This document shows positions 1-6,637 of a stretch of 6,637 nucleotides of DNA, piece by piece; positions within the stretch are counted from its first letter, which is position 1; each line of letters begins with the position of its first letter. A program made the translations under genes and the position numbers. The notes under the pieces are model-generated. The model was not told where the DNA came from. It saw only the letters and a program-made list of their open reading frames with translations, and ran no database searches. This DNA comes from a bacterium (GTDB lineage Bacteria; DYJV01; JALVYZ01): positions 1 to 6,637 of the forward strand of contig JALVYZ010000400.1 in assembly GCA_027037705.1 (NCBI GenBank). The letters are read 5' to 3'.

Positions 1-1093
1 CAAGTAATTTGTAATCTCTGAAAAATCTCTCTACATCATATTCTTTCATAAGTCCATATCCACCATGAATTTGAACTGCTTCATTTGCAACTCTTTTCAT
101 AACTTCTGAACAATACAATTTTGCCATAGCAGCATATTTTGCAAATGGTCTATTGTTGTCTCTCAGCCAGCATGCTTTATAAAGTAAATTTCTTGCAAGT
201 TCAATTTCTGTAGCCATATTAGCTATTTTGAACTGATTTATTTGAAAATTTATAATAGGCTGGCCAAATTGGACTCTCTGTTTAGCATATTTTATTGCAA
301 GCTCAAAAGCTCCTTGAGCACCACCTAAACCCATTGCTGCAATACTTAATCTTCCACCATCTAAAGTTGAAAGCATGTAATGAAAACCCTCTCCTCGTTT
401 ACCAAGCATATTCTCTTTTGGTACTCTTACATCATCAAAGTAAAGCTCACCAGTATTGGAAGCTCTCCACATTAATTTACCTTTCATCTCTTTTCTTGTT
501 AAACCTTTTGCATCAGCAGGCACAAGAAAACAGCTTATTTCTTTCTTACCATCAGGTCTCTTTCCTGTAACAGCCTGAACAATAATAACACCTGTCATTT
601 CATTTGCAGAATTTGTTATGAATATTTTACTACCATTTATTACCCATTCATTTCCATCGAGAACAGCAGTTGTCTGGGAATTACCAGCATCAGAACCAGC
701 ATTAGGCTCTGTTAGACCAAATGCAGCTAAAATTTCACCTTTGCAAAGAGGAGGTAGCCAATATTTTTTCTGTTCTTCATTACCAAAATAATATATTGGA
801 CCTATACCCAATGAATTGCCAGCTGCAATTGTTGCTGCATGAGATCCATCAACTCTTGCTAATTCTTCAACAGCTATTATATAAGATACATAATCAAGTC
901 CAGACCCCCCATATTCTGGAGAAACAAAAATTCCAAGAAGTCCTAACTCTCCCATCCTTTTTGTTAATTCAACAGAAAACTCTTCCTTTTCATCAAGTTC
1001 TCTTGCTACAGGTTTTATTTCATTTTCTGCAAAACTTCTCACAGTTTGTCTTAAAATATTATGTTCTTCTTTAAGGTCAAAATTTAGCGCCAT
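1..1093 (-). CDS. Acyl-CoA dehydrogenase, C-terminus cut by window edge
   Basis: FAD-dependent flavoenzyme that oxidises an acyl-CoA to the trans-2-enoyl-CoA and passes electrons to electron-transfer flavoprotein in the cytoplasm. Translating the minus strand from the ATG at 1093-1091 gives 364 residues with no stop before the left edge; the family is about 380 long, so roughly 15 residues are missing. The helical N-terminal domain covers about 1-118. The beta domain carries the flavin/substrate motif GLTEPNAGSD (126-135). The C-terminal helical domain has QRVQFGQP (272-279) and IHGGYG (342-347) followed by ERFFRD (355-360). At the position where isovaleryl-CoA dehydrogenases keep their catalytic Glu, the sequence reads LDGGR (244-248), so the base must be the Glu of the usual EGTSEIQ motif, just outside the window. 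The chain length preferred cannot be read. A good Shine-Dalgarno precedes the start; tgt lies 68 bases upstream on the same strand. Confidence 0.95.
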   Translation of the reverse strand, partial: MALNFDLKEEHNILRQTVRSFAENEIKPVARELDEKEEFSVELTKRMGELGLLGIFVSPEYGGSGLDYVSYIIAVEELARVDGSHAATIAAGNSLGIGPIYYFGNEEQKKYWLPPLCKGEILAAFGLTEPNAGSDAGNSQTTAVLDGNEWVINGSKIFITNSANEMTGVIIVQAVTGKRPDGKKEISCFLVPADAKGLTRKEMKGKLMWRASNTGELYFDDVRVPKENMLGKRGEGFHYMLSTLDGGRLSIAAMGLGGAQGAFELAIKYAKQRVQFGQPIINFQINQFKIANMATEIELARNLLYKACWLRDNNRPFAKYAAMAKLYCSEVMKRVANEAVQIHGGYGLMKEYDVERFFRDYKLL

Positions 1094-1097
1094 TTTT

Positions 1098-1107
1098 CCA
1101 CCCCTCT
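1098..1107 (-). promoter_or_regulatory. Ribosome binding site of the acyl-CoA dehydrogenase
   Basis: The minus strand reads AGAGGGGTGG, ending four bases before the ATG at 1093. It is purine-rich and close to the AGGAGGTG consensus. It fixes the start codon and shows that this gene is translated independently of tgt. Confidence 0.7.
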
Positions 1108-1139
1108 TATGATTTTTACGTAAACTGGGAAAGGATTAC

Positions 1140-3035
<1,896 letters not shown>

Positions 3036-3055
<20 letters not shown>

Positions 3056-3809
3056 ATTTACATGTCTCACAATTTTTGTCATGAATAATGAATGAAAAAT
3101 CTTTACCAAAAATATTTTCTAAATTTTTCTGAGTCATAGAATCTTCTGGCGTCCCATAAAAATGAATTTTCTTATTTAACCCTATAATTGAATCAACATA
3201 TTTTGAAATTATTCCAATGTCATGAGTAACAACAACAATAGTTAAACCTTCTTTTTTTAAGTCAATTAATAAATTGTAAAATTCCTGCTGGGAAATAATA
3301 TCAAGCCCTGTAGATGGTTCATCAAAAATTAATAGCTTTGGCTCAACTGCAAGAGCCCTTGCAATTAACACTCTCTGCTTTAAACCAGCTGATAAATCTT
3401 GAAAATAATCATTTACATAAGATAGTATTCCCACTCTATCAAGACATTTCTCTGCTATTTTAATATCATTTTTTGATGGAAGTTTAAAAAAACCTATTTG
3501 GGGATATCGTCCCATTACAACAATATCAATAACTTTAGACGGGAATTTTAGATTATAAACATTTTTTTGCGGTAAATATCCAATTAAACCCTTTGGATAA
3601 TCTGGAGAAATGTAATTAAATATTTTAACTTGACCAGAATATTTTGGTTGAAGTCCCAGGATGGCTCTTATAAATGTTGTTTTTCCTGAGCCATTGGGAC
3701 CTATAATTGCGGTAATTGAATTTTCTTTAATTTGTAAGTTTATATTATCAAGAATTATTTTTTTGTTAAATTTAATAGATAATGACTTTATCTCTATTGC
3801 ATTTGACAT
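3036..3809 (-). CDS. znuC: Metal ABC transporter ATP-binding protein, ZnuC-like
   Basis: Cytoplasmic ATPase that powers the adjacent metal permease. From the ATG at 3809 it has 257 residues and shows the complete ABC order: Walker A GPNGSGKT (37-44), Q-loop YLPQK with Q81, signature LSAGLKQR (139-146), Walker B LLIFDEP (159-165) with catalytic E164, D-loop STGLD (166-170) and H-loop H196 in VVVTHD. The signature departs from LSGGQ at its third and fifth positions but keeps the key Ser and second Gly. GRYPQIG (100-106) resembles the metal/siderophore branch of the ATPases. The tail holds HDKNCETC (243-250), a possible metal-binding cluster. The frame could start one codon earlier at a TTG (3812), but the ATG is preferred. 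Only three bases separate the ATG from the rpsT stop and no clear Shine-Dalgarno is present, so it is probably translated by coupling to rpsT. Confidence 0.92.
3060..3083 (-). other. C-terminal H-x3-C-x2-C cluster in the ATPase
   Basis: Residues 243-250 of the ATPase read HDKNCETC, placing one His and two Cys in an eight-residue stretch after the conserved ATPase core. The spacing resembles a metal-ligand cluster and recalls the His-rich tails of some zinc importer ATPases. Metal binding is inferred, not shown. The same DNA carries two unused alternative starts of the permease frame. Confidence 0.35.
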
Positions 3810-3812
3810 CAA

Positions 3813-4097
3813 TTATGTGTTTGATTGTAGTTCTGCTTTCAATTTATTTAATTTTACTGTTAATCTTGAAACTTTTCTTCCTGCATTTCTCCAATGAAGT
3901 ACACCTTTTGATTTTGCTTTATAGATAAATTTTATTGCGTTTCTTAATAATTCTTCAGCTTTTTGAACATCTTTTTCTTCAAGAGCATTTAAATACTTTT
4001 TAATTTCAGTTTTAGTTCTTGATTTAATTGCTTTGTTTCTCAATCTTCTTTTTTCAATCTGTCTAACTCTTTTCTTTGCTGACTTAATATTTGGCAC
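3813..4097 (-). CDS. rpsT: 30S ribosomal protein S20
   Basis: Primary 16S rRNA-binding protein that stabilises the 5' domain at the bottom of the small subunit. The 94-residue product begins MPNIKSAKKRVRQIEKRR, the hallmark S20 start, and ends with the expected second helix pair (HWRNAGRKVSRLTVKLNKL, 68-86). It is highly basic and of slightly above usual length (about 85-90). The start codon is GTG, supported by a near-perfect Shine-Dalgarno five bases upstream and by the conserved N-terminus. E. coli rpsT also uses a non-AUG start (UUG), which matters for its translational autoregulation, so a similar device is possible here. It is the first gene of the apparent operon rpsT-znuC-znuB-tgt and has a convincing promoter immediately upstream. 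The next gene begins three bases after its stop, with no terminator between. Confidence 0.98.
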   Translation of the reverse strand: MPNIKSAKKRVRQIEKRRLRNKAIKSRTKTEIKKYLNALEEKDVQKAEELLRNAIKFIYKAKSKGVLHWRNAGRKVSRLTVKLNKLKAELQSNT

Positions 4098-4181: not shown

Positions 4182-6637
4182 TTAAAATATAGTCTTTATT
4201 TTTTTTTTTTTCTTAACTGCCTTAAATTCTATTTCATTTAAAAATCTTGAAATTTTATTTTTAATTTTTTCACCATAAATAAATCTATTTGAAGATAATA
4301 AATACAATTTATCTTTAGCTCTTGTAATCCCAACATACAATAACCTTTTCTCCTCTTCAATATCCACTTTATAATTTGAAAGAGAGAAAGGCAACAACTT
4401 ATCTTCAACTCCAATTATAAAAACTACTCTAAATTCAAGCCCCTTTGATGCGTGAAAACTCAATAAACTAACCTTTTCAACTTCAAAATTTAAATCTGTA
4501 ATTTCTTCCAATGGAATTTCTTTAGCTTCTTGAAATGGAATACCTTCTTCTTTAAAAACCTTTTTAATTTTATCTGCTAAAGCATTTACCCTAAAAAGAA
4601 TTGCAATATCTTTAAATGATACAACCTCATTGAGATTATCTGAAGTATGTAATTCAACTCCTCCAATTAACTTTTTAATTTCATTAGCAATAAATTTTGC
4701 TTCTTCATCGTCTGAGAAAAATTTCATTAATTTTATTTCTCCATCACAATCTCTGACACACTGAAGTGGAGTATTTATTAATTTGTTGGAAAAATTTATA
4801 ATATTTTTACAGCTTCTATAGTTATATTTTAAGAATATTTTTTTCCCATCTAATTTGTTAAAATAGCTATTAGAAGCTCCTCTAAAACCATATATTGACT
4901 GATTTGGATCTCCAATCCCAAATAATTTAACATTATATTTTAAAAAACCCTTAATTATATTAAATTGAGGTTCATTTATATCTTGAAATTCATCAATGAG
5001 AAGATAATTAATATTTAAAGGATTTTCAATTTTTAAAATGTTAATAGCATTAAAAATTAAATCATCAAAATCATATAGATTTTCGCTTTTCAAATAATTT
5101 GTATAATCTATGACTTCTTTTTTAAAAAATTCTGGTTTGTATCCAGACCTATGAAAATAAAGGTCTTTAAAGAATTTTTCAATATCAACTTTCTTATTAC
5201 TTTTTATTAAATTTTTTATAATTTTTAGCTGTTCTTCTGCTTCTAAAATTTTAATATTTTCATTTCTTTTAATTTCAATAATTTTTTTAGAAAGAGAATG
5301 AAAAGTATGAATATTTACATCTAAATTAACTCTATTTTTTAGCTCATCTTTAGCTTTATTTGTAAATGTAATTGCAAAAATTTTATCTACTTCATAACCT
5401 TGATCAACCAAAAACTTTATTTTTTTCACTAAAGTAAAAGTTTTCCCTGTTCCAGGTCCTGCTATTACTAAAATTATATCATCTAATGCTTCTATTGATT
5501 TAATTTGTTCGTAATTAATATTTTTATTAGTTATAACTTTATTTTCACTTTTATTATTAGATTTGATCTCATACTCTTTTTTTTCTCTTTTAACTTCCTT
5601 TAATTTAATATTTTCAACAAAGATACCTTTTTTTGCTAAAAAATGTTTTCTATCATCTTCATTAATTACAATTATTTTACCATACTCCCCATCAAAACCA
5701 GGTTTAACCTCAACTTTCCCTTCTCTCATCTTTTCTATTCCATAAGCTATTAATTCTCCTGCTACCTTTTTAATCTCAACTAATGGAATGTCTTTTAAAA
5801 TTTCAAGCTCACTCCCAAGACTTTTAATCATTTTTTCATAAATATTTTTTACTTTTTTAGTTGAAGATCTTACATTTAAAGCTTGTGCAATTATTTCATC
5901 TAATGGTACTAAACTGTAATATTTTTGTAAAAATGGGATATTATCTTTTCTGTCTGCAAGCTCTAAAACCCTATGTAATACTCCAATTGTAATGGTTTTA
6001 CCACATTCTGGGCATATATTATTATTCTTAATTGCTTCTTCTGGATTCAAACATATATTACATTTTCTATGACCATCATAATGATATTTACCTTCCTCTG
6101 GAAAAAATTCAATTGTAGCGACTTTACTTTTATCTTTTAATGATTCTAATAAAGAAAAATAGTCTTTTTTGCAGAAAAAGATATTTGCCTCTCTCGCTAT
6201 TTTAAATGGAGAATGAGCATCTGAATTTGAAACAAGTGTAAATTTATCAAGCATTGATAGTCTCCAGTTCATAGGTGGATCGGAACTTAATCCTGTCTCA
6301 ACCGCATAAATATATTGAGTTAAATCCTCAAAACATTGCTCTATATCATCAAAACCACTCATTTTTCCAAAAAGTGAAAACCATGGAGTCCAAATATGAG
6401 CTGGTATAAATATAACATTTTCATCAACTTCAAGGCACAACTCAAGTAAATGTTTGGAATCTAATCCTAAGATTGGCCTTCCATCAGAATGGATATTACC
6501 TATTTTATCGAGTTTTTTTGATAATTTTTCAGCAGATTCTATTGTTGGCATATATATCATGTTATGAATTTTTCTAACTTTTCCATCTTTTTTATAAATA
6601 GAACTTATTTCACCGCCTAAAATAAACTGCACTTTAT
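4182..6637 (-). CDS. EndoQ-like nuclease fused to UvrD-type helicase, N-terminus missing
   Basis: The frame is open at the right edge, so the first 80-100 residues are missing. Numbering here takes the valine codon at 6632 as residue 1 (816 residues to the TAA at 4184-4182). Residues 1-325 are an endonuclease Q/TIGR00375 PHP module. Candidate metal ligands are E8 (GGEIS), H23 (KIHN), H48 and D50 (HSDGRP), H79 (PAHIWTPWFS), E112 (ETGLSSDP), D138 and H140 (SNSDAH). A zinc finger follows at C191/C194 and C207/C210, then TIGVLHRVLELAD. EndoQ nicks DNA 5' of deaminated bases and abasic sites. Residues 326-372 are a charged linker. Residues 373-816 are an SF1A helicase: Walker A AGPGTGKT (391-398), TFTNKAKDEL (422-431), IHTFHSL (441-447), DEFQD (547-551), GDPNQSIYGFRGA (574-586), YNYRS (603-607), LSFHASKGLEF (724-734) and LLYVGITRAKDKL (764-776). 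The 2B subdomain seems absent. A DNA repair role is inferred. Confidence 0.93.
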   Translation of the reverse strand, partial: KVQFILGGEISSIYKKDGKVRKIHNMIYMPTIESAEKLSKKLDKIGNIHSDGRPILGLDSKHLLELCLEVDENVIFIPAHIWTPWFSLFGKMSGFDDIEQCFEDLTQYIYAVETGLSSDPPMNWRLSMLDKFTLVSNSDAHSPFKIAREANIFFCKKDYFSLLESLKDKSKVATIEFFPEEGKYHYDGHRKCNICLNPEEAIKNNNICPECGKTITIGVLHRVLELADRKDNIPFLQKYYSLVPLDEIIAQALNVRSSTKKVKNIYEKMIKSLGSELEILKDIPLVEIKKVAGELIAYGIEKMREGKVEVKPGFDGEYGKIIVINEDDRKHFLAKKGIFVENIKLKEVKREKKEYEIKSNNKSENKVITNKNINYEQIKSIEALDDIILVIAGPGTGKTFTLVKKIKFLVDQGYEVDKIFAITFTNKAKDELKNRVNLDVNIHTFHSLSKKIIEIKRNENIKILEAEEQLKIIKNLIKSNKKVDIEKFFKDLYFHRSGYKPEFFKKEVIDYTNYLKSENLYDFDDLIFNAINILKIENPLNINYLLIDEFQDINEPQFNIIKGFLKYNVKLFGIGDPNQSIYGFRGASNSYFNKLDGKKIFLKYNYRSCKNIINFSNKLINTPLQCVRDCDGEIKLMKFFSDDEEAKFIANEIKKLIGGVELHTSDNLNEVVSFKDIAILFRVNALADKIKKVFKEEGIPFQEAKEIPLEEITDLNFEVEKVSLLSFHASKGLEFRVVFIIGVEDKLLPFSLSNYKVDIEEEKRLLYVGITRAKDKLYLLSSNRFIYGEKIKNKISRFLNEIEFKAVKKKKKIKTIF
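4199..4211 (-). repeat. A13 tract in the 3' end of the helicase gene
   Basis: Thirteen consecutive A on the coding strand contribute to a run of five lysines five residues before the stop of the fusion protein. Loss of one A gives an in-frame TAA at once; gain of one A extends the frame into the rpsT promoter. Either change would alter only the tail, after the last helicase motif. Confidence 0.75.

Follow-up and report, generated by a model that had tools for sequence, protein, structure and literature searches.

An endonuclease Q (EndoQ) and a UvrD-family helicase are joined in a single gene in the bacterial DNA analysed here. The fused protein occurs in about 9% (~1 in 11) of the sampled bacterial genomes, this one included, and suggests a little-known nick-and-unwind route of DNA repair. 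Both modules are of known kinds; the joint enzyme is a new variation on them. No description of an EndoQ–UvrD fusion was found in the open-access literature searched, a search outside of which most subscription journals lie. The step that comes after the EndoQ cut has been open since the discovery of EndoQ, and a recurring fusion suggests, by genetic linkage, which activity follows.

The fusion gene lies at 4182..6635 on the minus strand of the window, by which we mean the whole stretch of 6,637 nucleotides that was analysed and that is itself the whole of contig G000:C400. It has 817 codons and a stop codon (4182–4184), and the frame stays open up to the contig end at 6635. The gene is therefore incomplete at its 5' end, with about 80–100 N-terminal residues of the protein missing; neither a protein search nor an end-pattern search found this piece elsewhere in the same assembly. 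The protein begins with the EndoQ module (residues 1–336; 5628..6635, minus strand), followed by a lysine-rich linker (residues 337–371; 5523..5627, minus strand), an SF1A (UvrD/PcrA/Rep) helicase module (residues 372–804; 4224..5522, minus strand) and a short basic tail (residues 805–817). An AlphaFold2 model built from 46 fused sequences has a mean pLDDT of 86.7; the linker, at below 50, is predicted to be disordered, and the placement of the two modules relative to each other is not confidently predicted (pTM 0.56). The assignment of the domains and their order is strongly supported; sequence and predicted structure agree. A sequence-only reading had described an EndoQ and a helicase in one uninterrupted frame with a lysine-rich linker between them, and the 817 open codons and the disordered segment at 337–371 bear this out. 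On the same strand, after the fusion gene, window positions 1–4097 carry rpsT, a zinc-type ABC ATPase and permease (znuC/znuB-like), tgt and an acyl-CoA dehydrogenase; these neighbors, named by reading alone, look ordinary.

The EndoQ module comprises the PHP domain from the motif III region on, a zinc finger and the C-terminal EndoQ domain. In a phmmer search against solved structures, window residues 20–325 match residues 80–384 of PfuEndoQ (5zb8; E 2.7e-39), and the window model aligns with the same structure over 317 residues (Z 32.3, rmsd 2.6). A model of the complete Candidatus Formimonas warabiya protein (L003) aligns with PfuEndoQ over 388 of 398 residues (Z 47.7, VIA-align). Five ligands in the window, E9, H24, H80, D139 and H141, correspond to Pfu E76, H84, H139, D193 and H195. 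D193, the counterpart of window D139, is reported to be essential for EndoQ activity in P. furiosus, and the M. acetivorans enzyme was inactivated via the equivalent residue (PMC6202378). The conserved PHP metal ligands noted earlier are thus present in the window as far as the contig extends; motifs I and II (D5, H7, H9 and D41 in full-length relatives) lie off the contig, and the set is complete only in those relatives. There, D5, H7, H9, D41 and H104 are found in at least 90% of rows and E89, H160, D219 and H221 in all. The first five map to D6, H8, H10, D42 and H84 of PfuEndoQ and the other four to its E76, H139, D193 and H195; the Pfu motif I and II residues (D6, H8, H10, D42) agree with the columns conserved in at least 90%. 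Of the 47 family-invariant EndoQ columns, 33 are identical in PfuEndoQ, H139, D193 and H195 among them. The predicted four-Cys zinc finger is likewise present (C192-x2-C195 ... C208-x2-C211; 6003..6062, minus strand); it aligns with the Pfu CPKC finger, and C192, C208 and C211 are invariant across the fused family.

The truncated window gene scores 178–181 bits against TIGR00375 over profile positions 74–374, below the curated cut-off of 326.6. This cut-off is reached by none of the matches in 386 bacterial genomes, as compared to 2 of 14 named control genomes. The cut-off thus excludes the bacterial branch as a whole, and annotation pipelines built on TIGR00375 will therefore overlook it; what we claim for the window is accordingly an EndoQ-like module and not a TIGR00375 equivalog. 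The damage specificity proposed below is drawn from homology to EndoQ at about 30% identity. The divergence evident in these scores is real, and it lends some weight to the idea that the EndoQ fold has been repurposed for a different nick, for instance at mismatches, ribonucleotides or helix distortions, in a repair nuclease-helicase for another lesion. We consider this improbable, given that the catalytic ligands and most invariant residues are common to the family and PfuEndoQ, and that EndoQ-like activity was reported from a preliminary experiment with the B. subtilis homolog (PMC4357722).

As the sequence-only reading had stated, the second module has its SF1A ATPase motifs, all seven that were looked for: I (Walker A; GPGTGKT, residues 393–399, 5439..5459), Ia (TFTNKAK), II (Walker B; DEFQD, residues 548–552, 4980..4994), III (GDPNQSIYGFRG), IV (YNYRS), V (SFHASKGLEF) and VI (YVGITRAKD, residues 767–775, 4311..4337), all on the minus strand. 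Pfam, phmmer and structure alignment agree on the module. The Pfam matches are far over their cut-offs (PF00580, 155 bits against 23, E 3.4e-45; PF13361, 118 bits against 25.6, E 9.9e-34), phmmer matches the helicase part to PcrA among solved structures (E 1.6e-45), and the window model aligns with PcrA over 420 residues (Z 38.0, rmsd 2.2). The NCBIfam equivalog cut-off for PcrA/Rep/UvrD is not reached, the best score being 228.7 bits as compared to a cut-off of 911 for PcrA. PcrA residues from about 381 to 550, which form the 2B subdomain, have no counterpart in the phmmer alignment, and some ten residues (703–713; 4497..4529, minus strand) replace the ~170-residue 2B subdomain of PcrA and Rep. 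The segment between motifs IV and V is 17 residues long in the window and 16 in one relative (L212), as compared to 61–164 in most fused relatives. The 2B subdomain restrains Rep, and Mycoplasma pneumoniae has a PcrA that naturally lacks 2B yet works as a helicase (PMC3720892). Since active SF1A enzymes may be without 2B, its absence marks the window helicase as a variant and does not place it outside SF1A. Because 2B is missing, the window helicase is predicted to be a constitutively active core, whose loading EndoQ would perhaps supply.

The fusion is widespread. Searching a spread of 386 bacterial genomes with TIGR00375 and classifying the surroundings of the listed matches, we found EndoQ in 100 genomes: 34 carry it fused (27 families), 64 carry it as a stand-alone gene, and one (G044, locus L208) has two adjacent genes. 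The window comes in addition to these 34. At least 60 other loci have the same module order in one frame, which speaks against a chance arrangement, and the fused relatives in a scan of named genomes come mainly from Clostridia and Negativicutes, with others from Calditrichota, a Bacteroidales MAG, Fibrobacterota and further groups. Sporomusa acidovorans, Propionispora and Candidatus Formimonas warabiya are among the carriers in culture. EndoQ had been taken to be mainly a stand-alone archaeal enzyme. That is indeed the view of the literature, but about a quarter of the sampled bacteria have EndoQ, a third of those in fused form, and by this count EndoQ is common in bacteria, not rare, and under-annotated there. 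Further apparent EndoQ fusions in three long frames (L165, L207, L226) contain no second Pfam domain and are probably upstream read-through.

That the window gene lies at the contig end of a draft assembly, and that the frame is broken in two related MAGs (L029, L032), might suggest two neighboring genes read as one through an error of assembly or annotation. This is already refuted for the family and has next to no chance of being right: dozens of assemblies made independently of one another show the same fusion, complete or isolate genomes (L003, L014, L193) among them, and the fused rows fall on a single tree branch.

In a tree of 137 EndoQ domains, all sampled fused rows fall within one starred branch of 78 rows, which also takes in seven stand-alone EndoQs and three that lie next to a helicase gene. 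A contig end truncates one of the stand-alone cases (L201). In another (L231), EndoQ is still followed by a stretch that resembles the linker of fused proteins, and the 5 kb of sequence analysed contains no helicase. In G044 the split EndoQ and helicase genes overlap by 9 nt, and in a myxococcote locus (L030), which falls just outside the fused branch, they are 201 bases apart. The closest sampled relative of the window, from the same order (G001), has a stand-alone EndoQ. This pattern fits a single fusion event followed by repeated loss or splitting, although the tree is unrooted and the direction cannot be proved from counts. It also fits loss of the helicase in several lineages of the fused branch (for example L180, from the same order as the window), and where such loss has occurred the helicase would be dispensable for EndoQ, which counts against the reading preferred below. 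In the helicase tree, the fused helicases, the adjacent ones and an orphan (L041) group on one side, and the branch that sets them apart from PcrA-like controls is moderately supported (83). Deltaproteobacterial DNA, too, has helicases of the fused type (L030, 3039–5093; L041, 6001–7923); the orphan has a QLTLF tail as in fused proteins, and no EndoQ lies in the 14 kb of sequence analysed around it. One genome (G088) has two stand-alone EndoQ genes (L172, L174) on different branches of the EndoQ tree.

A second recurring feature is a short motif. The alignment consensus of the fused family has QxxLF behind the EndoQ module and QLxLF at the C-terminus, and sequences of the QLSLF or QxxLF type match the consensus for binding the beta clamp (the sliding clamp), a putative role here. 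Counting Q-x-x-[LMI]-F, with the last 25 residues taken as C-terminal and 500 shuffles as control, we found the C-terminal motif in 46 of 67 fused proteins (1.5 expected, maximum 6 in 500) and the linker motif in 18 of 67 (1.6 in shuffles). Among stand-alone bacterial EndoQs, 33 of 65 have the C-terminal motif (0.9 in shuffles). The rows are related, so the shuffle control overstates the significance of these counts; this does not apply to the helicase controls, where only 1 of 57 unfused UvrD-like helicases has the motif, namely the orphan L041. When the count is restricted to the sample spread over families, the motif is present in about 20 of 34 fused proteins. In about half of the stand-alone bacterial EndoQs (L146–L191) the very last residues form a QLSLF-type motif, which corresponds in bacteria to the PIP box of archaea. 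Three fused proteins of family f126 (L237, L238, L240) each have a long linker with three QxxLF motifs, as though several clamp contacts were made there. A PIP box at its C-terminus lets archaeal EndoQ bind PCNA and be stimulated by it, and the same study noted beta-clamp motifs in the bacterial homologs (PMC4858679). What is new is that fused proteins often keep the motif behind EndoQ and have another at the helicase end. In the window both sites are degenerate: KKGIF (residues 335–339; 5619..5633, minus strand), with K for Q, stands at the site of the family QxxLF motif, and a C-terminal tail ending in KIKTIF (4185..4223, minus strand) at the site of the relatives' QLSLF end. A homopolymer error in the T run near 4198–4210 was considered; the other frames give no clamp motif, and the printed tail stands. 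Clamp docking is thus a predicted property of the family, of which the window member has degenerate motif forms only.

We think it probable, on balance, that the fused protein is a bifunctional enzyme for an alternative excision repair guided by the sliding clamp: EndoQ would make the nick and the helicase would strip away the damaged strand. This nick-then-unwind idea is the best reading of the observed architecture, conservation and motifs, and it extends from them to a presumed lesion specificity, coupling and clamp docking. EndoQ incision 5' of a damaged base leaves a 3'-OH and a 5'-phosphate, and of the two post-incision pathways drawn originally for EndoQ, one is removal by a helicase (PMC4357722). 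In the fused protein, an EndoQ with a conserved catalytic center is flexibly linked to what sequence and model indicate to be an intact SF1A motor. EndoQ would nick 5' of a deaminated base (uracil, hypoxanthine or xanthine) or an AP site, generating these ends on the damaged strand. The helicase would then load on the intact strand at the nick and run 3' to 5', pushing aside the 5' end that bears the lesion as a polymerase elongates the strand from its 3'-OH. The displaced piece would be removed by a flap nuclease, of which the Pol I 5' nuclease is an example, or by a second nick, and ligase would seal. In most members, the QLSLF-type sequences may attach both modules to the beta clamp, much as archaeal EndoQ attaches to PCNA. 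Such a motor at a nick would displace the lesion strand, a geometry that fits what repair synthesis needs. That the two activities work together is suggested above all by how often they are paired, whether within one frame or as neighboring genes; the persistence of the fusion across many families, the adjacent genes and the clamp tails give nick-then-unwind independent support.

SF1A helicases such as Rep act at replication forks, and the order of events might be the reverse, with a motor that scans DNA or remodels a blocked fork before any nick and brings EndoQ to deaminated bases where the DNA is exposed or bound by the clamp. The clamp-binding motifs fit a replication-linked scanner and the flexible linker would permit one, but EndoQ finds lesions in duplex DNA without a motor (PMC4357722) and stand-alone EndoQ persists in related lineages; we regard this order as unlikely, though to be taken seriously. 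The genomic context bears on another possibility, that the protein is an anti-phage or anti-plasmid nuclease-helicase, Gabija-like or resembling other nuclease-UvrD pairs, attacking modified-base DNA. Among relatives we found no conserved operon partners beyond shadow frames of the gene itself and neighbors common to close kin, no recurrent defense genes among them, and none of the window neighbors is a defense partner. Among phage and plasmid records no match extends over 80% of the protein, and a scan of viral contigs gave no relatives. The branch pattern of the EndoQ tree is that of a mostly inherited chromosomal gene. The PADLOC profiles GajB and RTasHel do match the helicase part, but these matches are generic to UvrD helicases and no PADLOC model is listed for the EndoQ part, which leaves a defense role with little credit.

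Under the preferred nick-then-unwind reading, the fusion does not stand in for uracil glycosylase. That enzyme is kept by 24 of 28 fused carriers and by 74 of 80 genomes overall, with EndoQ carriers hardly differing. Since the carriers nearly all keep it, replacement is ruled out and the fusion would be an addition. EndoV is rarer in fused carriers domain-wide (4 of 28 as compared to 23 of 52; p = 0.007), a deficit not repeated within the phylum of G332 (about 7 of 13 as compared to 8 of 20). Whether all this amounts to a dedicated bacterial pathway, so far undescribed and present in ~9% of sampled genomes, in which a single polypeptide, tethered to the clamp, cuts next to deaminated or abasic sites and also unwinds the damaged strand, is to us close to an even question, leaning slightly to no. 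Such a pathway would add a fourth scheme to base excision, nucleotide excision and EndoV-type repair. With EndoQ in 100 of 386 bacterial genomes and missed by the curated model, a repair pathway regarded as archaeal is underestimated in bacteria, and the fusion offers one protein for assays of nicking, unwinding and clamp docking alike.

Compared to endonuclease Q itself (PfuEndoQ, 5zb8 and 7k30–7k33; TIGR00375, COG1379), the fused protein has the same PHP ligands except those off the contig, the same zinc finger, C-terminal domain and fold, and, as a family habit, a clamp-binding tail. It differs in having a helicase on the same chain and in scoring under the TIGR00375 cut-off, and the clamp motif of the fused family is of the bacterial beta-clamp type, unlike that of archaeal EndoQ. 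The window helicase resembles PcrA-s of Mycoplasma pneumoniae (MPN340) and the engineered Rep-delta-2B as an SF1A enzyme without 2B, those two being active (PMC3720892), but neither is fused to a nuclease and the lineage is different. With PcrA, Rep and UvrD it shares the seven motifs (I, Ia, II–VI) and the 1A-1B-2A core; unlike these, the fused helicases fall outside the PcrA branch and mostly have a clamp-binding-like motif at their end, and the window copy is without the 2B subdomain. Like UvrD with UvrC or MutL-type nickases, and like RecB/AddA, the fusion would couple a nick or cut to 3'-5' SF1A unwinding. In those systems, however, the nick comes from separate proteins or from a PD-(D/E)XK domain, where the fusion would use a lesion-specific PHP enzyme that shares its chain with the helicase.
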